DNA from: a virus
Direction: 5' to 3' (one strand)
IMG/VR virus record: IMGVR_UViG_3300040957_000044
Location: 1 to 28,159 of that record
Length of the DNA stretch: 28,159 nucleotides
The notes under the pieces were generated by a model that ran no database searches, had not been told where the DNA came from, and was given only the letters and a program-made list of their open reading frames with translations. Both the position numbers and the translations under genes were made by a program. Positions 6,291 through 19,428 of this stretch are shown piece after piece. The first letter of the stretch is position 1. The number at the start of each line of letters is the position of its first letter.

Positions 6291-6737
6291 TCACTTCCAT
6301 TTCATAGCGTATCTTGCAACTCTTATAAAATAGTTTAATGAATGACCGCCATGATAGCCTTGAATTATTTTTAATATGTTTCCATGATAACGTTGTCTTA
6401 AAATTTTTAAATATTTTACGCCTTCCATGATATTAATTTCGGGCTGGTAAAGGTCGAGCCATCCGCCTGTATAAGCACATTCCTTTTTTGCGGTAATTAA
6501 TGTCATACCCATTAACCCGATTGAAAAATCTTTCATTGAAGGCTCGTAGCGGGAAATTATTACTCGGCAATTGCTTTCAGTTTCGACAATTCCCCATGTC
6601 CACATCTCATAACCTTCCATAGATTGCAATTTACATTCATCTTTAATAATTATTTTTATATCTTTCACTGTATAGGCAAGTAAAGACTGCGCCAAAAAAA
6701 GCAGAAAAAAGAAACTAAGGAATGTAAAGCGTTTCAA
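6291..6737 (-). CDS. Secreted lytic transglycosylase (SLT-like)
   Basis: This 148-aa protein has a signal peptide (MKRFTFLSFFFLLFLAQSLLA) and a compact lysozyme-like SLT domain, which cleaves peptidoglycan glycan strands. The catalytic Glu is probably E54 in VETES (family pattern E-S). SIGLMGM at 72-78 corresponds to the usual G-L-M-Q, with Gly replacing Gln. LDLYQPEINIMEGVKYLKIL near 95-113 matches the NI-x2-G-x2-YL helix, and QGYHGG replaces the usual YN-A-G. The start is TTG 6737 overlapping the previous stop (TTGA) with AAAAGGAT upstream. It may help DNA entry or lysis from the periplasm. Confidence 0.8.
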   Translation of the reverse strand: MKRFTFLSFFFLLFLAQSLLAYTVKDIKIIIKDECKLQSMEGYEMWTWGIVETESNCRVIISRYEPSMKDFSIGLMGMTLITAKKECAYTGGWLDLYQPEINIMEGVKYLKILRQRYHGNILKIIQGYHGGHSLNYFIRVARYAMKWK

Positions 6738-9187
6738 GTTAATATCCTTTTATTTTTTATCATGCCAGGAATAATATAAGGCGTCCTGCTTGCGTTTGGT
6801 GTTGGAGTTATATAAATTGTCGGCGTAAAAACCGGCGTATTAGTTTTTGTCGGTTCCGGTGTTTTTGTCGGCGTCCAAGTCGAGCCTACTACATAAGCGC
6901 TTCCGACTGATGTCGGTGTCATTGTAAAGGATAAATTAGGAGTTGGTGTTTGAGATAAAATTACAATTTCCGTTTGTGTAAATCCGGCAATTGCCGTAAG
7001 TTGGGCATTTATAATTGCCGTTGATGTTTGATTAACTATTGCCGTCAAAGTTAGATTTGGTGTAATTGTAAATGTCGGCGTTGCCGTTGGTGTCCCCGTT
7101 GGTGTTGGCGTTAATATTCCGCAACTTGCGAACTGTGCAAATGTACCGTTGTAAACACTATATCCTATTGCGCCACCCGGATAAACACCATAAGGCCCGT
7201 TGGCGTTATCAGTACCATCATAAAATAAATATGTTTGTCCGTTATATTCACAAATGCTTGCGTCAACAGCCTGGTTATTGTCATTAAGCCCGAACATGTG
7301 TTGCGTCCATGAAACAAGAGGGTTGACATCAAACACATACCAGTTAAATAAGTCATTGCTTTCGGCCATATAAAGATTTGTATTCATTCCCAAACCGTAA
7401 AAAGTATAATAAATGCCATTATATTCCATTGTTGCCCTACCGCCCTGTGTTATCCTTCCACTTGTCAACGGAATATAAGACCCGTTATACATTACAAGCC
7501 CGACAAGCGTTTCCTGTGAGGCTGGATAAAATTGAGTGGCATTTCCACTCGTATCGTCCATCAACCATAATGCGTAAGGATAATTATATGGGCCGGGACA
7601 TTGATTTGCTATAATTTCCGCTATGCCGTGATATTTCCCATCGCTTCCTAAAAATATTCCTATGCCGTCCGATTCACCGCCAGATCCCGTACATGGCGGC
7701 TGAAAATATGAAATCTGAAAAACAGGATTTAAAGGATAACCGACAAGAGTATAATTATATCCATCTACTGACGTAGCGTAATAAACCATTTTGTGAAGTT
7801 CATCTGAAAAATAAATCCTGTATTCGCTGCCGATATGCAACTGGCTTGACTGCCCGCAAGCATTCGGCTCGCCAAGTGCCCCGCCACCGATTATACTGCC
7901 GTATCGTGTCCAGTTTATTCCATCGCTTGATGTCGCAAGGCAAATTGTTTCAACCCCGCCGTTTAAATAAAAGGCATTGCCGGTATAAGTCATGTGTAAA
8001 AGTCCATCTGGGCCGACAATAACGTTTGGCTCAACAACCGAACCTGCGCTCCCGCCTTCAAATGTTGTAGTTGGAACTAATACCGGCGTCTGATTCTGCA
8101 CAAAGGAATTAACCTGCCACGGCGTATTACATATCATTGGGGGTACTCCTGGGGTCGGCGTATAACTTGAAATAACCCAGATTTGAGTCGCGTTATATGT
8201 TTGTGTTACTGTCCGCGTAAAAGTTGGTGTCATTGAAAATGTTGGAGTTAAACTTTCAACGGCATAAAAACACCCGCAGGCCGTCTGGTTTGCTTGAAGT
8301 ATTGCGATATTGGTTTCGTCTGCCGCCTGTGTTTGGTTTGGCGTTGCCGTCCATGCTGTTTCAGTGCCGATTTGTTGCAATGTAGCCAATATATTCGGCT
8401 GTGTTGGTGTCCATGTCGGAGTATAAACCGGCGTATTTGTATATGTAGGGCTATTTGTAAAAGTCGGACTCCATGTTGGAGTATTTGTAAAAGTAAACGT
8501 GGGCGAAGGCACAACCGGAGTAATTTCAACGCCCGCATAATTTGTTGTAGAAAATATTATTGAATTGTAATAAGCATTTGAATAATTGCCGGAAGTATAG
8601 GCATTATAATATTGTCCCCACTCATAATAAGTTGCTATATTCCCCGGTAAGTGTACATTTGTATCTGTTGCCTTTAAACTGCTATCAACATAAATTAAAC
8701 ATTCCCCGCTGCTTCCTGTATCATAACACAAGTCTATTGTATGCCATGCGTCCCGGCTAAAAGCAATACTGACCTGTCTATTATTCTGGGAGTCATCATA
8801 ATATAAAGTTCCCGAATAAAAATATAACCGAAATTCCATATAAGAATCTTCAAACAATTCGCTGTTTACCGGCTGCCCGGAAGATACTACTAATACTGAT
8901 AATTGAATTGTGCGGTATGGAGTGCTATCAAGTGCCGCTGAAATGCCATATTCATTATTCCCATTTATCAATCCGAAGGATTGAGTTATCCCCGAACATA
9001 TTCCAGTAAAGTAATAAGATGAATTCCAGTTTGAGCTGATAGTATATGTTTGAGAACCGCTGCCGTCATTTGTTGTGCTGCCATTTAATTCAAGAACAGT
9101 TTTACAATCACTTGAAAAAGTACATAATGAGGCAAAAAGATATACTGGCAATAAGCTAAAAAAAAACCAAAATATAATTTTTTTCAT
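6734..9187 (-). CDS. Exported LamG-like + five-bladed-propeller-like protein with Thr/Pro repeats
   Basis: This 817-aa protein has a signal peptide (1-20). Residues 30-215 look like a concanavalin/LamG jelly roll (YRTIQLSVLV, MEFRLYFYSGTLYY, DAWHTIDLCYDT, CLIYVDSSLKAT). Residues 226-350 hold Thr/Pro repeats (TPTWSPTFTNSPTYTNTP). Residues 375-690 resemble the five-bladed propeller of GH43/32/130-type glycosidases (EPNVIVGPDGLLHMTYTG, then LATSSDGINWTRYG, YATSVDGYNY, and MAESNDLFNWYVF as blade motifs). A second Thr/Pro tract (692-800) ends the protein. The first blade has EPN where active GH43 enzymes have DP, so activity is uncertain. It is probably a glycan-binding surface or virion protein. 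It follows the 508-aa protein by 4 nt. Confidence 0.7.
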   Translation of the reverse strand: MKKIIFWFFFSLLPVYLFASLCTFSSDCKTVLELNGSTTNDGSGSQTYTISSNWNSSYYFTGICSGITQSFGLINGNNEYGISAALDSTPYRTIQLSVLVVSSGQPVNSELFEDSYMEFRLYFYSGTLYYDDSQNNRQVSIAFSRDAWHTIDLCYDTGSSGECLIYVDSSLKATDTNVHLPGNIATYYEWGQYYNAYTSGNYSNAYYNSIIFSTTNYAGVEITPVVPSPTFTFTNTPTWSPTFTNSPTYTNTPVYTPTWTPTQPNILATLQQIGTETAWTATPNQTQAADETNIAILQANQTACGCFYAVESLTPTFSMTPTFTRTVTQTYNATQIWVISSYTPTPGVPPMICNTPWQVNSFVQNQTPVLVPTTTFEGGSAGSVVEPNVIVGPDGLLHMTYTGNAFYLNGGVETICLATSSDGINWTRYGSIIGGGALGEPNACGQSSQLHIGSEYRIYFSDELHKMVYYATSVDGYNYTLVGYPLNPVFQISYFQPPCTGSGGESDGIGIFLGSDGKYHGIAEIIANQCPGPYNYPYALWLMDDTSGNATQFYPASQETLVGLVMYNGSYIPLTSGRITQGGRATMEYNGIYYTFYGLGMNTNLYMAESNDLFNWYVFDVNPLVSWTQHMFGLNDNNQAVDASICEYNGQTYLFYDGTDNANGPYGVYPGGAIGYSVYNGTFAQFASCGILTPTPTGTPTATPTFTITPNLTLTAIVNQTSTAIINAQLTAIAGFTQTEIVILSQTPTPNLSFTMTPTSVGSAYVVGSTWTPTKTPEPTKTNTPVFTPTIYITPTPNASRTPYIIPGMIKNKRILT

Positions 9188-9191
9188 TAAC

Positions 9192-10718
9192 TTAATGCCC
9201 TAACTTCTGGATTTCTATTTGAGTAATTGCGTTTAAGACCGCCGCTGTGTATGTATCAGAACTTGGACTTGACGGGGCTGCTGGCTCATTTATGACCGTA
9301 GCTATTGCTACCACTAACCCCGAAATTTGGCTGTCAAGCAACGGAGTAGGTGTTAATGTGGGAGTATTTGTTACACTTACAATCGGGGTTGCCGTTAAAG
9401 TAATGGTCAATGTAGGTGTCCATGAGGTCATGCCTATTATATATGTCCAGGTTGCGTTGGGTGTTGAAGTATAAGACGGAGTAAATGTATTTGTACCCGT
9501 GAAAGTATTTGTAAAGGTATTTGTCGGCGTTGAAGTAAAAGAAGCCGTGGGGGTTTGTGTTTCTGAAATCAAATTTATTATATACGTCCATGTAGCTTGC
9601 GGCGTAAAAACAGTTGTAGCCGTTAATGCCGGTGTCGGGGTATCTGTAAAAGTATCGAAAGCTATTTGAGTATTAAAAGCATTGACAATATTTGTGCTTG
9701 TAGCGTTTGGAGTTATTGTTAATGTAAAAGTCGGGGTGTAAGTAAAAGTAAATGTATATGTTGCAGTCAATGGCGGAGTTGGTGTCATTGTCAATGTAGT
9801 AATATATACTATTGTCGTTCCTGCCGCAAGCGGTGTTGTTATTGCTGTTAATGTTAAATTTGGTGTCGGCGTTAATGTCTGAATAAATGTTGCCGTTGTC
9901 GCAAGGCTGTTATATTGCCCCTGTATCGGTGTTTGAGTATTAAAAGCGTTTTGTAATGGAGTAGCCGCAAAAGTCTGTGTTGCCTGTCCTGCCGTTATCC
10001 CTATTGTCGCCGTTTGATTTGGTGTTGCCGTTAACGCAGCGTTTACTTCCATAAGTATTACAGATGATATTTTAGTTGAACCTACTATCCATGAAAAACT
10101 TTCTGAAGTTCCGGCGGCTGGCCCTGTTTCGTAACCATCAGAAAAACCTATAACCGCTGAGGACGCCGGCCATGTCAGTCCATTTATCTGCGTTTCGCCT
10201 GCTGTATATGTCTGTGGCATATAAGCCGTTGAAGCGGTATCCATCCCCACTGAATAAAACATACTGCTTGCCTGCTGCGCTGTAATTGCGTTGGCCCACG
10301 TCAAAGCAGTTGCGTTATATTGATAAGCACACTGACCGATTTGTGTTGCCGCGCTCCATCCCGTTGCGTCTTCTACCCAAGTATAAGAGCCTGCCATAGT
10401 CCATGTTAAAGTATACGCCGAACCTGTTGGCGGGTATTGCATATACCATACACTCATGCCGCCGACAGTATTATTATATTGTCCAAATTCAGTTAAAGCA
10501 ACGCTATTAAACTTAACGGTTAAAGCTTGTTGAGTTGCAGCGCTTGAACTTGTTGCAATAGTTACGATAAGCAAAGTTGTAGAAGCGTTGAGGTTGATGC
10601 TTTCCCCGCCTGTGGCAACTCCCGTTCCGCTTGTTTGTGCTTTTTGGACATAACCAGGCTGTGCATATAATGCCTGCGCCGATAATAATATCAGCGCAAT
10701 AAATAAAAATTTTTTCAT
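9192..10718 (-). CDS. Exported beta-sandwich protein with Thr/Pro/Asn repeats
   Basis: The start is ATG 10718, one nt after the previous stop; a TTG nine nt earlier is an alternative. A canonical signal peptide (MKKFLFIALILLSAQALYA, cleavage after YA) precedes a beta-rich domain to about residue 230 (TTLLIVTIATSSS, SVWYMQYPPTGSAYTLTW). Residues 230-465 are repeats of the type TPTFTLTITPNATSTNI. A short conserved-looking tail (LDSQISGLVVAIATVINEP and ITQIEIQKLG) may oligomerise. There is no membrane anchor or cell-wall sorting signal. It shares its repeat module with the two other exported proteins. It may be an adhesin or fibre-like protein; function is unknown. Confidence 0.7.
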   Translation of the reverse strand: MKKFLFIALILLSAQALYAQPGYVQKAQTSGTGVATGGESINLNASTTLLIVTIATSSSAATQQALTVKFNSVALTEFGQYNNTVGGMSVWYMQYPPTGSAYTLTWTMAGSYTWVEDATGWSAATQIGQCAYQYNATALTWANAITAQQASSMFYSVGMDTASTAYMPQTYTAGETQINGLTWPASSAVIGFSDGYETGPAAGTSESFSWIVGSTKISSVILMEVNAALTATPNQTATIGITAGQATQTFAATPLQNAFNTQTPIQGQYNSLATTATFIQTLTPTPNLTLTAITTPLAAGTTIVYITTLTMTPTPPLTATYTFTFTYTPTFTLTITPNATSTNIVNAFNTQIAFDTFTDTPTPALTATTVFTPQATWTYIINLISETQTPTASFTSTPTNTFTNTFTGTNTFTPSYTSTPNATWTYIIGMTSWTPTLTITLTATPIVSVTNTPTLTPTPLLDSQISGLVVAIATVINEPAAPSSPSSDTYTAAVLNAITQIEIQKLGH

Positions 10719-10719
10719 G

Positions 10720-11349
10720 TTAAACAAAAACCTTTATCGCGTCTGCCTGCGTAATACCCCATGTGTCCCAAATTATCCAGCCATTTTGTTTATTGACTAC
10801 CTGATTAGTAAGATATACTCCTATATCTCCGGGACTTGTAAGTTCCGCTTTTTTTTGTGATATAGGAATATTCTGCGAGGCATATTCCTGTACATCCGCT
10901 TCGCTGCAAAAATCTGTTGCGTTTGAACTATCATCACCACCGACAAGAAAATCAATCACTATTGCCGGATAATTATACGGCTTTCCCTTAAGCCCCTTTG
11001 CAAAAGCAATTATACTTACCGCTTGTATTGGAGTTAAGTCCTGCTTGACGTAAATTATCCCCTGTCCGGTTGTCGGGTCTAATTTATCTTCTGTCATTCC
11101 CCCGCCCTCAGCTTCTATGGTGTCAAGTCCACCACAAGACAAAGCGGCATGATTAGCCCATTCTTGTGTAATTTTTCTTATAGCCCCTTCTACAAATCCC
11201 TTCCCACGCTCAATTATAACTGCCGCAGGCGGGATATTTGTACTATTAAGCGTCTTTGCTGTATAACAGGCTTGTATGTCCTTGCCCGTGCAACCTGTCC
11301 AAAGTTTTTTAAAGAAATTCCCAAATCCTGTAAAAAAAGGAATTGTCAT
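10720..11349 (-). CDS. YiiX-like permuted NlpC/P60 (papain-fold) hydrolase
   Basis: This 209-aa protein fits the permuted papain-like amidases (YiiX/YaeF type): the His comes first (NHAALSCGG, H67) followed by IEAEGGG (E79), and the Cys comes late in DFCSEADVQEY (C148-S-E). LTSPGDIGVYL near 171-180 matches the family's P-G-D-L segment. Such enzymes cut peptide or lipid amide bonds, in phages usually cell-wall peptides. No clear signal peptide is seen (PFFTGFGNFFKKLW is amphipathic). ATG 11349 has GAGGTG. It sits between exported-protein genes, so a wall-remodelling role is likely. The family call is by motif only. Confidence 0.65.
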   Translation of the reverse strand: MTIPFFTGFGNFFKKLWTGCTGKDIQACYTAKTLNSTNIPPAAVIIERGKGFVEGAIRKITQEWANHAALSCGGLDTIEAEGGGMTEDKLDPTTGQGIIYVKQDLTPIQAVSIIAFAKGLKGKPYNYPAIVIDFLVGGDDSSNATDFCSEADVQEYASQNIPISQKKAELTSPGDIGVYLTNQVVNKQNGWIIWDTWGITQADAIKVFV

Positions 11350-11363
11350 AATTCACCTCTAAT

Positions 11364-11573
11364 TTATTTTGGTGTCTCTGTTGAAACCGGAGCTTGCGGC
11401 GTTGGCTGTGTTGCCGGAGTTGGGTTTTCAATCTCTTCAATCAAAGCCGCTACCTTTTTAAGCAATGGATTTCCCGCTATAAAATCCGCTTCCGGCGTTC
11501 CCGGAGTAATAGCCTGTTTTACTTCTGTAGCAAGAACGTGCTTTAAAAGAATTAATAATAATTCTTGTATCAT
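11364..11573 (-). CDS. Small protein with hydrophobic N-terminus and Pro/Thr tail (69 aa)
   Basis: ATG 11573 has AGGTGAT four nt upstream and is preferred; a GTG at 11582 that overlaps the previous stop is possible. The N-terminus (MIQELLLILLKHVLA) is a short hydrophobic or amphipathic helix, followed by a helical segment (LLKKVAALIEEIENP) and a Pro/Thr-rich tail (TPATQPTPQAPVSTETP). It could be membrane-associated and may work with the neighbouring 52-aa membrane protein. Function is unknown. Confidence 0.6.
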   Translation of the reverse strand: MIQELLLILLKHVLATEVKQAITPGTPEADFIAGNPLLKKVAALIEEIENPTPATQPTPQAPVSTETPK

Positions 11574-11578
11574 TCTAA

Positions 11579-11737
11579 TCACCTGCCTTTAAAAGTAAGT
11601 TCATTCCTGTTTTTATCCACTTCATTTAAAAACTTTTTTTCCTTATGCCTTTGCCATATTGACCTTATAAAAATAGCCGCCAATATGGCCAATAACCAAA
11701 TACCGACTAATAGAAAACATTCGGCGTAAGGATTCAT
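11579..11737 (-). CDS. Small membrane protein with basic tail (52 aa)
   Basis: This 52-aa frame starts at ATG 11737, one nt after the stop of the 582-aa gene, and fills the gap exactly. One hydrophobic helix (CFLLVGIWLLAILAAIFI) is followed by a highly charged tail (RSIWQRHKEKKFLNEVDKNRNE). The length and layout fit a small holin or an inner-membrane spanin-like protein, but no partner outer-membrane lipoprotein is seen. It is coupled to the genes on both sides. The ribosome site is weak. Confidence 0.6.
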   Translation of the reverse strand: MNPYAECFLLVGIWLLAILAAIFIRSIWQRHKEKKFLNEVDKNRNELTFKGR

Positions 11738-11738
11738 A

Positions 11739-13487
11739 CTACCACACGGCATTCCACACTATAATTACGCTCATACTTGCCGAAGTTGTTATACCCGAAT
11801 AAATAAGCTGCACAACCTCGTTTGTAGCGTAAGTTGTATTTGGATAAAAAGTTGGCGGAGTTTTGTTTGTAGCCGCGTTCAAAACTGCCGCTGTAATTGA
11901 GTTTGTCCCGCCCTGTACCGTTATGGTTCCCGTACTTGATGAAGTTGCCATAAAGATACTCAATACTTTGACTTTCATCCCCGCCGGTGGAGTAATACTG
12001 TTATAAGTTATTGTAGCTGTTGAAACCGCCGTTGCCGAAAATACTACCGTATAAGGTACAATGGTATTTACCGGAGTTGGGGAAGCTACAACAATATTGT
12101 ACTGTGGCCCTAAAATTGGAAGTTCGCTTGTTAAAGTCGTGCTGTCGGCGTTCGCGTAAAAATTCCAAATGTCAAGATTTGAGGCAAGCGAACTATTGCC
12201 GGAAAATACCCACGTCAAATGCTGTCCTGCGCCTGCCGTTGGGATTGCTATAACCATGCCATAATTAGTATATGATTTTGTACCGACAACTTGTGTCGGG
12301 CCTGCCACCGCGATATAACCAGGTGTTGCTGTTGCCTGTGGTGTGCCATTTACAGCGAGGTTGTTCCAATAAATATTCGGCCTTGTTATTTCTACTGCTC
12401 CAGCCTGTACACTTACAGGAAAATATCCAATAAATGTAAATGCCTGTATTGTATTTGGAAGTGGAGTTAAAGCGGGCGGATTTTGTGAACTTAAAACAAA
12501 ATCACTGTAGGGGCTGTTGGCATAAACTTTAGGAAGCCCTGCATTTGCGATTGTTTGGCTTAACGTCGCCGCTTTTACGCTGCTGTAATGATTATCTTTT
12601 ATTACAAACGTAAAACTTTGATTTGTTACAGAAGCCGGTATCGTAATTCCATAATAAGTAAAAACTACGGTATCATTTGCGACTGCCGATAAGGTCAATC
12701 CTGCCCCGCCGCCATAATTGATTATTTTCAATCCACTATTCGCGCCGGTTGTAGAAGCTGTCATTGACAAATTTCCATATTTAACGGTACCACTTACAAA
12801 TTTAGGGAAACCCTGCGGTGTATAAAGATACATTTCGCCATTTACATAAGTACCTTTTACTGTAATAGTAATAGAAATAAATGAGCAATACTGTCCGCCG
12901 CCCACGATTGCCGGATATATTGATACAGTATCGGTAACAATCGGTGTTGCCGTAATTGCCGCGACTGCCGTCCCTGTTGCGACTATTGCGGTTTTAGTTC
13001 CCGCGATTGCCGTTTTTACTGCATTGGCGCTTGCCGTTGCTGTCGCCCATTTTCCGGCAATGCTTGTTTTTGTTGTGTTTGGCGTAGTGGTTATTGTAAA
13101 TGTCGGAGTTATAGTATAACTTGACGCTACATAAGTACCAGTAACCTGCGCCGTAAGTGTCGCAATATATGCTGCTGTTGTAGTAGCAACTGCGGCATTT
13201 GTCGCAGAAGCATTTGCAGTCGCAACAGCCGCGTTTGTAGCGGAAGCCCCCGCCGTTTGTGTCGCTATTACGGCAATTTGCGTTTGAATAGCAACAATAG
13301 TTTGACTTGCTGCCGCCGTTTGTGTTGCGGCAACAGAAGTTAAAATTGCGTTTGCCGTTGATGTCTGTGCAATCTGTGTCAAAGTCGGATCGCCCCACAA
13401 ATTAGCGCATTTGTGGCAAATTAAATTGTAAATTGTAAAACACAAAATCACTCCTAAAAATACTCCTAAAATCCTTTTCATTTTCAT
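11739..13487 (-). CDS. Exported Ala/Thr-repeat protein (582 aa)
   Basis: The start is ATG 13487 with AGGAGG seven nt upstream, just after a predicted promoter. An N-terminal hydrophobic signal or anchor (ILGVFLGVILCFTIYNLIC) leads to residues 35-185, low-complexity Ala/Thr repeats (a 12-residue unit ASATNAAVATAN repeated in tandem, IATQTAGA and similar) like the helical stalks of phage fibres. The rest (190-582) is beta-rich and looks like two or three sandwich domains, ending in a hydrophobic strand (SMSVIIVWNAVW). It carries the shared TPNTTKTSI element. Its role may be a fibre, an adhesin or a surface protein. No family is recognised. Confidence 0.7.
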   Translation of the reverse strand: MKMKRILGVFLGVILCFTIYNLICHKCANLWGDPTLTQIAQTSTANAILTSVAATQTAAASQTIVAIQTQIAVIATQTAGASATNAAVATANASATNAAVATTTAAYIATLTAQVTGTYVASSYTITPTFTITTTPNTTKTSIAGKWATATASANAVKTAIAGTKTAIVATGTAVAAITATPIVTDTVSIYPAIVGGGQYCSFISITITVKGTYVNGEMYLYTPQGFPKFVSGTVKYGNLSMTASTTGANSGLKIINYGGGAGLTLSAVANDTVVFTYYGITIPASVTNQSFTFVIKDNHYSSVKAATLSQTIANAGLPKVYANSPYSDFVLSSQNPPALTPLPNTIQAFTFIGYFPVSVQAGAVEITRPNIYWNNLAVNGTPQATATPGYIAVAGPTQVVGTKSYTNYGMVIAIPTAGAGQHLTWVFSGNSSLASNLDIWNFYANADSTTLTSELPILGPQYNIVVASPTPVNTIVPYTVVFSATAVSTATITYNSITPPAGMKVKVLSIFMATSSSTGTITVQGGTNSITAAVLNAATNKTPPTFYPNTTYATNEVVQLIYSGITTSASMSVIIVWNAVW

Positions 13488-13523
13488 TGTAAAGCCTCCT
13501 GTAATTTAGTTTTATGTATAGGC

Positions 13524-13552
13524 ATTATATTACAATATTGATTAAAAATCAA
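13524..13552 (-). promoter_or_regulatory. Promoter of the exported-protein cassette, with inverted repeat
   Basis: The minus strand reads TTGATT (13552-13547), 17 nt, TATAAT (13529-13524): perfect -10, four of six at -35, ideal spacing. An exact 9-bp inverted repeat with a 3-nt loop (13535-13543 and 13547-13555) covers the -35 box and spacer, a typical operator position. The predicted start near 13517 lies just before the ribosome site of the 582-aa gene, in the largest gap of the late region. Confidence 0.6.
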
Positions 13553-13563
13553 TATATTATCCA

Positions 13564-14082
13564 TTATTTCACCGCCGGAACCGCCGGAACCGGAATTAAA
13601 TAAATTCCGTTTTGTTGCTTTAGTTCTGTCCATAATGAAAAGTCCGAAACGCTTAAATGTATCCATGTGTCTGTAAAAGCCTCTATGCCCGAAACGCCGA
13701 GTTTTAATAAATCCATGCAATATTTATTTAAAATGTCCTGTTGTACCTGTGAAACTGAAACCCCGTTAACATTGAAGTCAACTGCCCGCCCGAACGAATG
13801 GCAGGAATGTTCAATAAAATCTGGGTCAGGTGGAGTGTTAATATTGCACAAATCAAATGCCGGAATATTAGCAACCGAACCATAGGGACGTAAACATCTC
13901 CTATCAAAATCCCCGCCAACGTGCCAATCATTAATTATTATCTGTACCCCATATACATTTCTTAAATACTGCATAATCGGTGGAATTCTGTAATCAATAA
14001 ATCTCATTGCTTTCGCGCCCCAAAGACTATATACTGATTTTGGGATAAATTCCTGCTCTAAAAAGTTTTCCGCTCCGTTCAT
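13564..14082 (-). CDS. Endolysin: M15 family zinc peptidase
   Basis: This 172-aa protein has the M15 D,D-/L,D-peptidase signature: SCHSFGRAVDFNV with H95 and D102 as zinc ligands, and GIEAFTDTWIHLSVSD with E134 as the likely base and H142 as the third ligand. It should cut peptidoglycan peptide cross-links to release phage. There is no signal peptide, so a holin is needed for export; the 104-aa gene upstream is a candidate. ATG 14082 has GAGGTGA. The C-terminal PVPAVPAV tail is odd and probably unstructured. Confidence 0.85.
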   Translation of the reverse strand: MNGAENFLEQEFIPKSVYSLWGAKAMRFIDYRIPPIMQYLRNVYGVQIIINDWHVGGDFDRRCLRPYGSVANIPAFDLCNINTPPDPDFIEHSCHSFGRAVDFNVNGVSVSQVQQDILNKYCMDLLKLGVSGIEAFTDTWIHLSVSDFSLWTELKQQNGIYLIPVPAVPAVK

Positions 14083-14085
14083 AAA

Positions 14086-14400
14086 TCACCTCTTTAAAAA
14101 GATATCATAAATAACACTTATAGCCATCACAACAATCCCAATAACTGTTATAAGCTGTCCAATCGTCCATTCTCTTTTTTGTTCTCGTTTTTCATATGTT
14201 TCCCTCATTTCTTTAAATCCTGTTTGAATATCTACTTTCACGTCGCCTACCTCCTTTTCTAAATTTCCTATCCTACTGTCATGCCTTATGCCCTGCGGAC
14301 AATTTTTCATCTCATCTTTGCATACCTGTCGAGCTGCCTCTCTTATTTTGCTTGTCATCATGCCTGCCATACTTTCCCCGTTTTCATTGTCATCTGGCAT
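14086..14400 (-). CDS. Holin-like protein with coiled coil and C-terminal membrane helix
   Basis: This 104-aa protein has a polar N-terminus, a coiled-coil segment (RIGNLEKEVGDVKVDIQTGFKEM) and one C-terminal membrane helix (GQLITVIGIVVMAISVIYDIF). The layout resembles XhlA-type holin-associated proteins. It lies 3 nt upstream of the M15 endolysin, as lysis partners often do. ATG 14400 has AGGTGG six nt upstream. Holin function is inferred from layout and position. Confidence 0.65.
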   Translation of the reverse strand: MPDDNENGESMAGMMTSKIREAARQVCKDEMKNCPQGIRHDSRIGNLEKEVGDVKVDIQTGFKEMRETYEKREQKREWTIGQLITVIGIVVMAISVIYDIFLKR

Positions 14401-14401
14401 T

Positions 14402-15454
14402 TTATTCCACCTGCAATCCTATCCCGTCTATTATATAAGACGATAAACGAGTTTCAAATCCTGTGCAAACATATATATAATTATCATACTTAAAAAAAGT
14501 CGAAAGTCCTATTTCGTTATATAAATTAGTAATCTCTAAATTCCTTATTTCCTTATACTCTCTTGAGTAAATCTGGTTTCGCCTGTCCGCGAGTATTTGT
14601 AAAGAATCCAAAGACATAAAAATATTTGACAACGAATCAGTAAATATTAAACTGCTTGTACTGCCTATAACTTCATTGGTTAAAATATTAACGGGATTAG
14701 AAGTTAATAAACTTAAAGCCGTGTTTTCCGTGCCGTTTGGCGCGGTTGTAGCCGTTAGTTTTGTCTGATTACAGTATATCTCTGTCATACAAGCGGGCTT
14801 TGGCCTATTTGTAATCGGGCATGGTTTTTGTGTTTCGGTTATATCAACAGCGTAAGTCGGCCAATAAGTAGGTATAACAAAGAAATTAATTTCAAGCCCA
14901 TTAAAATATATCCCCACCTGTAAATACTCCAATAGTTTTGTCAATAAATCCATGTCATTGACATCCTGCCCGTTAGAGTTAATCATAATATCTATGCCTG
15001 CGAAATTATCCGCTAAACCTACCGCAATAGGGTTAATGGTGTAATAGTTTGGGATTTTCGCAAGCATATTTTGTAAGACCTGGATTAATCTTATAAATGC
15101 GTTTGTATATGTAGTATCATTATAAGTTGTTTGATTTTTAGCGAAAAAATTCAAGAACGGTATGCTTTCAATCTCAAAAAATCTTGTTTGTTCGTTATTG
15201 ACACATTCAGTTTCATATCCCTTAAATATTGGAATACCGGATTTATTCACTTGTATCACATTATCCTCAATTGCGGGGAAAAAAGCGTCCGCATACTCAA
15301 AAGGAACTTTCATTGAAATTTTATTAAAATCAACCGTATATTTTTTGAGTATGTTCAAATAAGCCTGTTGTTTAAACCTGCTTAATTGCAAGGTTGAAAC
15401 AAACTGCCCGTTTAAAATTAAGTCATAGTTTCCTGTCGGCGTTAATGTAATCAC
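14402..15454 (-). CDS. Baseplate hub / tail-associated protein (350 aa)
   Basis: This 350-aa protein follows the large tail protein. Its N-terminus (TLTPTGNYDLILNGQFVSTLQLSRFKQQAYLNIL) and the mixed beta domains fit the hub fold of gp27/Tal-like proteins, but sequence motifs are weak. No peptidase motif is visible. It starts at GTG 15454, overlapping the previous stop (GTGA), with GGTGA upstream. It probably caps the tail tube below the tape measure. The call rests mainly on gene order. Confidence 0.55.
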   Translation of the reverse strand: MITLTPTGNYDLILNGQFVSTLQLSRFKQQAYLNILKKYTVDFNKISMKVPFEYADAFFPAIEDNVIQVNKSGIPIFKGYETECVNNEQTRFFEIESIPFLNFFAKNQTTYNDTTYTNAFIRLIQVLQNMLAKIPNYYTINPIAVGLADNFAGIDIMINSNGQDVNDMDLLTKLLEYLQVGIYFNGLEINFFVIPTYWPTYAVDITETQKPCPITNRPKPACMTEIYCNQTKLTATTAPNGTENTALSLLTSNPVNILTNEVIGSTSSLIFTDSLSNIFMSLDSLQILADRRNQIYSREYKEIRNLEITNLYNEIGLSTFFKYDNYIYVCTGFETRLSSYIIDGIGLQVE

Positions 15455-18400
15455 GGGTTCACCACGGTATATTTTGAAATATTAAATGCGGGCTGTAAAA
15501 TAAAATGTAAGTTAATCCCACCGTAAGCATTAAGATAAAATTGCCATTCCTGCGGCTCAAAACTTAACGGACTTGACTTGTCTATTTTGTAATAAGTCCA
15601 TGTCTGGCCGTAATCCTCACTTATTCCACACACCCATAAAGTCTGATAAACTTCCATAATGGCGGTTTTTAAATTTTCCGATATTCTGCTGTCCTTGCCT
15701 GCTGATTTCCAAGTTAAAATTTCATCCTGATTATATCCCGTTGGATTTGCCATATAAGTCCCGTCCACGAGTTTAATGCTTGACGGATTTAGTGCCTCTA
15801 TCCCGTATTTTACGCTGTTAGGATTTTCTAAAGCCCAAAAATTAGAGCTATAGACATTTCCAGAATTAAGGCTTCCATTAGTATCATAAAATATGTAAGA
15901 AGAGAATACTGGCAAAGCATTTATAATTCCCGAATGATTTAAGTTATTCAAATTTCTCGCGCCTATATTTGACTGATTGTCCGAAGCCGCGCCAAAGGCA
16001 GATGAATCATTAAAATAACCCATTATCTGCAAGGCGGGATATAAATATACAGGGTCAAGTAATGGAGCGTTGCTTAAATCGCTGGTTCCCTGTGTTAAAT
16101 AATAATCCGGGTCTGTTAATGGCAATAAGTCATAGTACCGCGTTCCGATATAATTATAACTTGTCTGCATTTCCATAACATAATCACTGATATTATTCAG
16201 CATAATAATATTGTTTTGTATTGTGCATATAGTCGAACTATATTGCGGTTGCGCGTAAAATCCCTGGAAAAGCGAAACAACTCCGTAATTATTATTTATT
16301 ATTGTATTATTTTGTAAATTAACCCCGCTGTTTATTTCAAGCGCCGTATTATTATATTGCATAATACAATTTTGTATATTGCCGATTAATGATTGCGTGG
16401 CGCAATTTTCCCTTATACCAATTCCATTTACTCCTATCCTGTTGTTTATTATTTGATTACTGCCTATTGTAGAGTTTAAAACATTAATATTTATATTCTG
16501 GCTCAATACTCCTATCAATCCGCCTATTACATTACAATATTGTAAAGTACATGGAGATTGATTTGACGATACTATGACCGAACCCGCAAATCCCTGTAAT
16601 TGCAAAAACCGATATTGAATCGTTGCCGATCCGCCCGGATTTGATAATTCAGGAGTTAAAAAACAATTATTAAACGCAAAATTCGTATAATTTCTTACGG
16701 GAAATTGCTCAATCCCGGAACTTGCAAACCATCCAAAATTATCATCAAGGGGGTCTATAAAAGAAGGATTTCCATTAAAACAAGTTAGAGCATAATACAT
16801 AGAGCTATATTTACCATTTAATCCTATTAATCCTATGGTAACAAAATCATTATTAGTTGCGCCTATAAGAGTATTATATAAATTTATATTTACATTTCCA
16901 CCGCCATAAGTCATGGGTTGCCAATTAATAGCATTGTTTTGCATAACAAAATCCTGTATATTGATACTGCTTGTTGTGTCAGAAGAATACACAAATGCTA
17001 CATTGGTATTATTCACAAATGCATTACCATTTAATGTAAACGTGTTAATAGCCGATATGTCGGAAATCTCAAGTGCCGCCCTTCCATTAAAGGGCTCTTC
17101 TGTAAGATTGCCCATTGTAGAAAAAAATAGAGGGCCTCCACTGCAATTATTTATTATATTATTTGAAAAATTAATAGCTCCCCCATTGGAAGTATTTGTT
17201 AATTGAATTTTAATAGATGAAGCTATTGCAAAGGGGGAATTTATGTTTGGTGCGTTATAACTTGCTGTTACATTAAAATTATTAATTAAATTTTTAAAAT
17301 AGTTTTTTTTCATTACAACATTAATTGCCGTTGCTGATGAAGGTGGAGTTAAATTACAATAAAAATTATAACAATAAAATCCATGTGTGTATGAGTTTTG
17401 ATTTGTGTTTGGGTCTGAATTTATATTATTATCATGCTGATAATTTCCTATATAATAAATATTCGGAAAAGTTGTTATTGAATTAGCATTTATATGCCCC
17501 GCTACGTGTAAATATTCGGGCGTTGTTAATGCCGTATAAAAATTAGTATCTATTGCCCCGCCAAAATTTCCATCTATGCACAATCTATTTGTAAAATCAT
17601 TCATTAGTAATGTTATATTTTCCGAACCTTGCGGGTTTACAGCAGAACTACCCGCATATAAAAAATACGAATAATTATTAGCGGAAGAACCCATTACGGA
17701 ATTAAATTCTCCATAAAAATTCATCGCATAAGACGCATTGCTTTTGTCTATATAAATAAAATAATTATTTGATGTTTGTCCCTGGAATCCCGTATTATTT
17801 TTAACATAAGCATTGCCATAACTTCCAATTTCACATTTTATCATTGTTGTATATTCATTATTTCCAATAAATGTGCAATTTTCAACATAAGCATTTGTAA
17901 GTCCATTAAAATCAATTGCTATGCCATTTCCAGAACTATTATTTCCTATGCCTGTAAAGGTGCATTCTTTTAAAAATAATACCCCGGAACCAGAAACGTC
18001 TGTTAAAATAAGAACTTCAGTTCCCGTCCCCTGTCCTTGAAATTTTATTCCGTATACATAGCAGCTATAGATCGAATCGGTGATTAAAATATTATTCCCG
18101 CCGGTATATTTCCACGTTGGTAAACAATTTTCTGCCGCTTCAATAGTAATATTTTTTGTTGCCGTTAATACTTCATTATAAACATTGCTGTCTATTATCT
18201 GTATGCAATCATTCGCGCTTGCCGCCGAGTGTGCCGCCGCTATACTTGTATATGCCGCACCTAAAGGATTTCCTGGCTGATTGCTGACCGTTCTTATGGT
18301 TCCCGCCCCACCGGTTGTTTCATAAAAATAATTCCTATAATAATTTCTTGCTCCTATCCGTGTATTATCACAAACTCCGGGAACCCTTGAAATTGTAGGC

Positions 18401-19428
18401 GTTTCAAGATAATCGGCTTGTATAATTAAATTGCTAAAGGTAGGAACTCCCCCGGTTATTCCGCCTTGATTTCCCGGAATACCTATATCAGTGCCATCTT
18501 GATAAACCGGCTTATATATCGCTGAATCAATTATGACAATATTTCCTTTTCCAGTCGCACCGTTTGATATTTGATACATTGCTTGCTCTATCGTAGCAAC
18601 GGCGGTTTTTCTTGACAAACCATTATTATATTTATCATTGCCAAAATATTGAGATACAAAAATACAGGTTCCCGCCTGCGCTAAATTTGTATAATAAGCG
18701 TTTAACACCGTATTTATTCCGCCGTCATCCGTATTTTGCGGCAAAGCGAGCCATGCGTCCTGTAAATATAAGTTCATACTGCATGCTCCGGAGGCTTTTG
18801 TTACGGTTAACTGCATTTGTATCATAGTAATAGTTTCCATATCCATTGATTGAAACCCATTATAATAAGTCAACCCTGAAAGGTATGGTATACAGAATTT
18901 ATTCCATCCAATATTCATTAAAGATGTTACTGTATAATTTGCTGTCGCGTATTTTGAGCCGTTATAAAAAAAGAACTGCATTGTTACACTGTCGGGCGTT
19001 GATGTTACATATTCGCCCCGTAAATTCAAAACAAGATTTAATTGCTCGTTTAAGGCGCCATACATACCGGTTCTTGTTATTTGTGAGTAATTATTTTGTG
19101 TTGTGCCAAGTGAAGTAAAATCAAATGGCGTTGTAAAATTAATCCAAAATAAACTCTGGCTGTTTTCATGCGCGTTAACTTCCAAACACCGGCCCTGATA
19201 GCTGTTTCTATATGCCCTTGAATAATCCCAGAATCCAGATGAAACACCTGATTGCGACAAGAACCATATTTCAAAAGGGTCGCCAGGCGGACGGTCAAAA
19301 TATGTGAGATGCAAATTAGGAATCTGATTTCCTATAATTGGCAAATAGTCTTTTAATAATAATTGTTCAAAAGATTGATATTGGAGTTGTAATGGCGGCC
19401 TTCTAAATGGAGCATTAGGATATGTCAT
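15451..19428 (-). CDS. Giant tail-tip protein with jelly-roll and beta-helix domains (1325 aa)
   Basis: Directly after the tape measure, where a distal tail protein would be expected, is a 1325-aa protein. Residues 45-235 look like a jelly-roll carbohydrate-binding domain. Near 255 comes the standard entry of parallel beta-helix proteins (FVSQYFGNDKYNNGLSRKTAVATIEQAM), and a second entry follows (AYTSIAAAHSAASANDCIQI). Asn-rich rungs such as AYVENCTFIGNN and NVLNSTIGSNQIINNRIGVN then run to about 1190. The C-terminal 130 residues (TYMANPTGYNQDEILTWKS) are globular. It is probably a receptor-binding or depolymerase tailspike built into the baseplate; catalytic residues cannot be assigned. Confidence 0.75.
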   Translation of the reverse strand: MTYPNAPFRRPPLQLQYQSFEQLLLKDYLPIIGNQIPNLHLTYFDRPPGDPFEIWFLSQSGVSSGFWDYSRAYRNSYQGRCLEVNAHENSQSLFWINFTTPFDFTSLGTTQNNYSQITRTGMYGALNEQLNLVLNLRGEYVTSTPDSVTMQFFFYNGSKYATANYTVTSLMNIGWNKFCIPYLSGLTYYNGFQSMDMETITMIQMQLTVTKASGACSMNLYLQDAWLALPQNTDDGGINTVLNAYYTNLAQAGTCIFVSQYFGNDKYNNGLSRKTAVATIEQAMYQISNGATGKGNIVIIDSAIYKPVYQDGTDIGIPGNQGGITGGVPTFSNLIIQADYLETPTISRVPGVCDNTRIGARNYYRNYFYETTGGAGTIRTVSNQPGNPLGAAYTSIAAAHSAASANDCIQIIDSNVYNEVLTATKNITIEAAENCLPTWKYTGGNNILITDSIYSCYVYGIKFQGQGTGTEVLILTDVSGSGVLFLKECTFTGIGNNSSGNGIAIDFNGLTNAYVENCTFIGNNEYTTMIKCEIGSYGNAYVKNNTGFQGQTSNNYFIYIDKSNASYAMNFYGEFNSVMGSSANNYSYFLYAGSSAVNPQGSENITLLMNDFTNRLCIDGNFGGAIDTNFYTALTTPEYLHVAGHINANSITTFPNIYYIGNYQHDNNINSDPNTNQNSYTHGFYCYNFYCNLTPPSSATAINVVMKKNYFKNLINNFNVTASYNAPNINSPFAIASSIKIQLTNTSNGGAINFSNNIINNCSGGPLFFSTMGNLTEEPFNGRAALEISDISAINTFTLNGNAFVNNTNVAFVYSSDTTSSINIQDFVMQNNAINWQPMTYGGGNVNINLYNTLIGATNNDFVTIGLIGLNGKYSSMYYALTCFNGNPSFIDPLDDNFGWFASSGIEQFPVRNYTNFAFNNCFLTPELSNPGGSATIQYRFLQLQGFAGSVIVSSNQSPCTLQYCNVIGGLIGVLSQNININVLNSTIGSNQIINNRIGVNGIGIRENCATQSLIGNIQNCIMQYNNTALEINSGVNLQNNTIINNNYGVVSLFQGFYAQPQYSSTICTIQNNIIMLNNISDYVMEMQTSYNYIGTRYYDLLPLTDPDYYLTQGTSDLSNAPLLDPVYLYPALQIMGYFNDSSAFGAASDNQSNIGARNLNNLNHSGIINALPVFSSYIFYDTNGSLNSGNVYSSNFWALENPNSVKYGIEALNPSSIKLVDGTYMANPTGYNQDEILTWKSAGKDSRISENLKTAIMEVYQTLWVCGISEDYGQTWTYYKIDKSSPLSFEPQEWQFYLNAYGGINLHFILQPAFNISKYTVVNP

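Follow-up and report, generated by a model that had tools for sequence, protein, structure and literature searches.

Between the M15-type endolysin gene and the early genes of a 28,159-base virus record (IMGVR_UViG_3300040957_000044, examined at full length and here called the window) lies a block of genes that we interpret, with moderate confidence, as a late lysis-plus-surface module, whose host-like secreted products would cover, bind, or trim glycans of the host surface. By a rule-based test Sec signals are confined to this block, an observation that favors action at the surface. The presence of a matching block in two distant relatives suggests that these phages alter the exterior of the cells they infect. 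The block is probably a novel version of exported phage morons and not a categorically new system. If the reading is true, some phages give over a sizeable part of their late genome to proteins whose action lies beyond the infected cell and relies on host-type secreted domains, which would be relevant to the handling of receptors, matrix, and competitors by phages from uncultured phyla.

Gene order and export signals

On the minus strand the window runs from protease, major capsid protein, connector proteins, tail tube, and tape measure through p1325, p350, p104, and the M15-type endolysin to the block and the early genes (Table 1); a near-identical contig (L002) adds portal and terminase upstream of the window. 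The gene set originally predicted for the block, namely proteins of 817, 508, and 582 aa, a transglycosylase, two small proteins, and a YiiX-like enzyme, is present in full, with all ORFs on the minus strand. The 52-aa ORF falls under the 60-aa cut-off for ORF calling and was identified from the sequence. Ahead of the block, p1325 has no homologue among 50,697 phage records, and AlphaFold2 modeling of p350, from an alignment of 3 sequences only, gave a pLDDT of 34.

Table 1. Features of the block and its flank, in window positions (G048 and G049 are the two distant relatives described below)
Feature	Position	Strand	Basis
p148, lytic transglycosylase (SLT), N-terminal Sec signal, final block gene	6291..6737	-	PF01464, E=6e-8
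p817, signal peptide, LamG-like domain, Thr-rich linkers, GH43/GH130-like beta-propeller	6734..9187	-	rule-based signal and homology
p511 (508 aa from a better ATG), signal peptide, long Thr-rich C-terminal region	9192..10727	-	
p209, YiiX/YaeF-like permuted papain-fold enzyme, no signal peptide	10720..11349	-	PHROG 1128, E=6e-9
69-aa protein, hydrophobic N-terminus, PT-rich C-terminus; 72 aa from an upstream GTG	11364..11573 (GTG form to 11582)	-	sequence
52-aa single-TM membrane protein, holin-like in size	11579..11737	-	sequence
p582, N-terminal signal that is either cleavable or an anchor, region of Ala/Thr repeats, C-terminal domains of no known family	11739..13487	-	
Promoter-like site TTGATT-17-TATAAT, overlapping small palindrome TTGATTTTTAATCAA	13524..13552	-	consensus match only
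172-aa M15-peptidase-type endolysin, no signal	13564..14082	-	PHROG 894 endolysin, E=1e-11
p104, C-terminal TM, XhlA/holin-accessory-like	14086..14400	-	TM; homologue in G049
p350, tail-end protein (baseplate/hub position), synteny anchor	14402..15454	-	homologues in G049 and G048
p1325, tail protein, no signal peptide, candidate virion receptor-binding protein	15451..19428	-	homologues in G049 and G048; after tape measure

Export was assessed by a rule requiring a positive n-region, an uncharged hydrophobic core, and a small-X-small site. The rule flagged all three large proteins and the transglycosylase, as had been claimed from their N-termini, and it flagged exactly these four (p148, p817, p511, and p582) among all minus-strand genes of the window. 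All four signal-positive ORFs are thus among the 6 block ORFs, out of 22 ORFs of at least 100 aa (p = 0.002). The control rate is 10 in 199 ORFs from 18 other viral contigs, several of those 10 being dubious. By the same rule p511 has the best score, the signal of p148 lies within MKRFTFLSFFFLLFLAQSLLAY, and the N-terminus of p582 could be an uncleaved anchor instead of a cleaved signal. The three large proteins further share T-x-T linkers, with counts far above those of composition shuffles in p817 (44 vs 15.5 ± 3.4) and p511 (52 vs 24.7 ± 3.7) and a smaller excess in p582 (25 vs 15.4 ± 3.2).

Predicted exported proteins and lysis enzymes

In p817, a LamG-like domain (about 20-220) and a propeller (about 345-695) are joined and followed by Thr-rich linkers (221-345 and 690-803). 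Its own profile matches are weak, including one to the NCBIfam beta-1,2-mannosidase (E=1e-5), and the propeller matches GH43/GH130 profiles only below threshold, with none above a curated cut-off; members of its homologue alignment, on the other hand, match Laminin_G_3 and GH43 in Pfam. These domains are predicted to be of carbohydrate-binding or carbohydrate-cleaving types. No homologue of p817 was found in the 50,697 phage records, and a scan of viral contigs gave no close relative. The propeller has a match in the Goldiibacteriota group at E=1e-69, the control search of 198 genomes of the phylum of G003 giving partial weak matches with a best E of 2e-7. In one Goldiibacteriota-group genome, a protein (G046:C121) is 45% identical across residues 332-698 of p817 and also has a LamG match, so that the domain order of this Goldiibacteriota/FCPU426 secreted protein is that of p817; its linker holds few T-x-T, although T-x-T linkers do occur in the phylum. 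Unlike p817, it appears to be chromosomal: its contig carries asnB along with radical-SAM and methyltransferase genes, and none of phage type was seen on it. A second, more distant homologue (G004) has T-rich linkers and ends in what by eye is a sorting-type domain, absent from p817. An architectural homologue on a chromosomal-looking contig favors the surface-module reading. AlphaFold2 on the propeller, from a single sequence only, gave a pLDDT of 32.

The PF01464 match of p148 exceeds the Pfam cut-off, resembling SLT proteins are present in Goldiibacteriota-group genomes, and the protein combines the muralytic domain and the N-terminal Sec signal (by rule) of Sec-exported/SAR endolysins; it is predicted to be a Sec-exported muralytic enzyme. 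The YiiX-like assignment of p209 is weak but real as judged from its similarities, which include Bacillus phage G gp212 (E=1e-6) and NCBIfam NF008552 YaeF (E=8e-6; 25 bits, against a cut-off of 279). Scans of viral contigs yielded no close relatives of p148 or p209. Taken together with the M15-type enzyme, the SLT protein is better read as part of a lysis module interleaved with exported genes than as glycan-altering cargo. Outside their Thr-rich parts, neither p511 nor p582 has recognizable relatives: p511 has no homologue in the 50,697 phage records and none was found for its N-terminal domain, and no convincing relatives of p582 were found. Matches of p511 in host genomes were mostly Thr-rich low complexity and were not counted as homology, a resemblance of its N domain to exported proteins of the relatives, suspected by eye, was unsupported on comparison, and an apparent relative of p582 (L003) was a spurious antisense match.

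Predicted exported runs in other phages

Viral contigs were scanned with a DNA pattern for F/Y-T-x-T-P-T-F/Y-T-x-T, and at least two of the matches lie in distant relatives of the window, G049 (IMGVR_UViG_3300023311_000279; loci L141, L184, and L185) and G048 (IMGVR_UViG_3300017988_000315; loci L132 and L183). The tail proteins p1325 and p350 are common to all three at 26-34% identity (p1325, 34% to G049 and 29% to G048), and in both relatives a run of exported proteins comes soon after the p350 homologue. In G048 a 134-aa protein bearing a TM at its C-terminus comes first, and the run itself comprises proteins of 153, 1011, 110, 319, and 258 aa; the signal of the 1011-aa protein was judged by eye and missed by the rule-based script, and the 319-aa protein, LamG plus T-rich, is 30% identical to the N-terminal part of p817. 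In G049 the exported proteins are of 537, 84, 789, and 459 aa, interrupted by an 86-aa ORF that is not exported, and the 789-aa protein is Kelch by Pfam and LamG-like by eye. Next come a homologue of p104 (E=2e-14), a small protein with a TM segment, a protein of 172 aa, and an exported SLT-like protein of 189 aa; the last of these covers nearly the full PF01464 profile at E=0.006, below the cut-off, and was not linked directly to p148 by BLASTP. A 213-aa protein of G049 is YiiX-like by eye only, BLASTP and Pfam giving no match. The search for the same gene set in other phages thus recovered an exported block in the same place but with different contents, which indicates that the place and style of the block are kept although what it contains changes. 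Such differences (LamG plus GH43-like in one case, Kelch in another) are as expected for fast-changing surface factors. The tail-tube protein of G048 (L183 13194-14087) starts identically to that of L004 (9823-10143), a 53% terminase relative, which is therefore probably in the phage group of G048.

At least five further virus contigs have runs of exported proteins as well, whose late positions vary, and runs of at least three such proteins, some of them Thr-rich, are found in L186, L189, L142, and L068. In L186 (11209-15183; IMGVR_UViG_3300043811_000019) four exported proteins surround a short protein whose N-terminus is T7 gp17 adaptor-like by eye; in L189 (5141-8642; IMGVR_UViG_3300017991_000037) exported proteins of 297, 123, and 742 aa, the last Thr-rich, lie between capsid and tail genes; and in L142 (4366-8024), as in L065 and L094, all of another phage group, two to three successive exported proteins adjoin terminase and portal. 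L173 (10396-12545) encodes an exported Kelch protein and, beside it, a partial protein whose end is a propeller of the p817 type (47% over 61 aa). The T-x-T repeat is put to a separate use in L064, L104, L106, L135, and other viral contigs, where Thr-rich proteins containing it, many of them large, are without signal peptides.

These positions bear on whether the exported proteins are virion receptor-binding fibers, packaged despite a signal-like N-terminus or attached outside the cell or after lysis. The block does directly follow the tail genes, glycan-binding domains are typical of fibers, and in L186 three exported proteins follow the gp17-like protein. Nevertheless, the signals look canonical and cleavable, the nearest homologue is a cellular secreted protein, and, given the capsid/tail site in L189 and the terminase and portal site in L142, such runs are not tied to the fiber position in general, so that a fiber identity is unlikely. 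Phage DGR target proteins, for comparison, are stated to be without signal peptides (PMC6199706). Further, the surface-module reading is favored by p1325, a non-exported candidate receptor-binding protein that is already present.

Transcription, proposed action, and host

The block was originally credited with its own promoter, and a promoter-like TTGATT-17-TATAAT (13552-13524, minus strand) does sit at its start, matching consensus at 10 of 12 positions in the sole real gap (76 bases) ahead of the block. However, the evidence is a consensus match alone, and since comparable sites in the region are only mildly enriched (48 vs 34 in shuffles), it is suggestive only. The palindrome (13538-13552) overlaps the -35 region and is a possible operator. 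No minus-strand terminator was found at either border of the block, and in the absence of bracketing terminators and with genes that nearly overlap, late read-through is likely and co-transcription with the late genes probable. The block is accordingly taken to be expressed late.

The same evidence weighs on the possibility that these are lysogenic-conversion morons, whose promoter would be active in the lysogen and whose products would alter adhesion, glycan use, or phage sensitivity with no lytic role. The promoter-like site, the host-like character of the secreted proteins, and the precedent of the signal-peptide genes of Porphyromonas gingivalis phages agree with this. Conversely, the block is not bracketed by terminators, its genes are intermingled with those for lysis, neither an integrase nor a repressor was seen in the window, and base composition is not atypical (GC 0.410 against 0.394 in the late region), which leaves lysogenic conversion improbable. 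Doubtful to a greater degree is an extracytoplasmic adhesin system spread over several unrelated phage lineages of Thr-rich-coated bacteria, in which fast-changing receptor-binding or decoy proteins are exported via Sec and join virions or the surface. Least probable is a secreted depolymerase or dispersal set in which the propeller protein digests extracellular matrix and progeny spread, as the GH43/GH130-like propeller and LamG might imply, because the profile matches are weak, catalytic residues are not established, and one relative has a Kelch propeller instead.

Under the preferred lysis-plus-surface reading, a cytoplasmic M15 endolysin and a Sec-exported SLT would be made late in infection and cut peptidoglycan; small membrane proteins would be made as well, as would three Thr-rich proteins that are host-like and exported through Sec. 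These three would leave by the host Sec system for the envelope and the cell surface, where they may bind, mask, or trim host glycans; adsorption to the dying cell or its debris, both by other phages and by the progeny of this one, might thereby be prevented. The original interpretation is therefore supported in part. Signals, a host-type homologue, and exported blocks in relatives agree with a moron-like set on the host surface, whereas the SLT and M15 enzymes fit lysis better, and a fiber system assembled outside the cytoplasm found no positive evidence.

Among lambdoid phages, Lom and Bor are exported late-region morons, one or two small outer-membrane proteins. The block resembles them in encoding host-exported proteins among late genes and differs in the size and number of its products, large repeat proteins whose genes form a run interspersed with lysis genes. 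Endolysins exported by Sec are likewise established (fOg44 Lys44 and SAR endolysins; PMC6116005), and p148 similarly is a cell-wall enzyme with an N-terminal export signal, although here it stands at the far end of an exported-repeat-protein block and is accompanied by a second, cytoplasmic M15-type endolysin. P. gingivalis phages are reported to have five genes with signal peptides, of unknown function, for which a role in modifying the outer membrane of the host has been proposed (PMC10367356), and are thus also phages with several Sec-signal genes; their host is of the Bacteroidota, and they are not reported to have Thr-rich LamG/propeller proteins or an exported SLT. The claim that no such phage system had been described was consequently too strong, judged by the open-licence literature searched, while this specific gene combination was not found in the 50,697 annotated phage records.

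The host is likely of the Goldiibacteriota group, a poorly known bacterial phylum, given the p817 homologue in G046 and a composition that is nearest to the relative G049 and moderately near some genomes of the group. Among 45 Goldiibacteriota-group genomes no prophage of this clade was found (an SLT/YiiX/M15/MCP concatenate gave SLT-domain matches only), a p350 profile search gave no match, and neither did a terminase-alignment scan of genome contigs. Long T-x-T secreted proteins are present in the phylum, and T-x-T proteins may help to connect virus contigs with hosts of this kind. In one Goldiibacteriota protein (L023 1-3904), near-perfect repeats of the TVTETVTPT type extend over more than 1000 residues, and the C-terminus by eye holds a FlgD-like domain.
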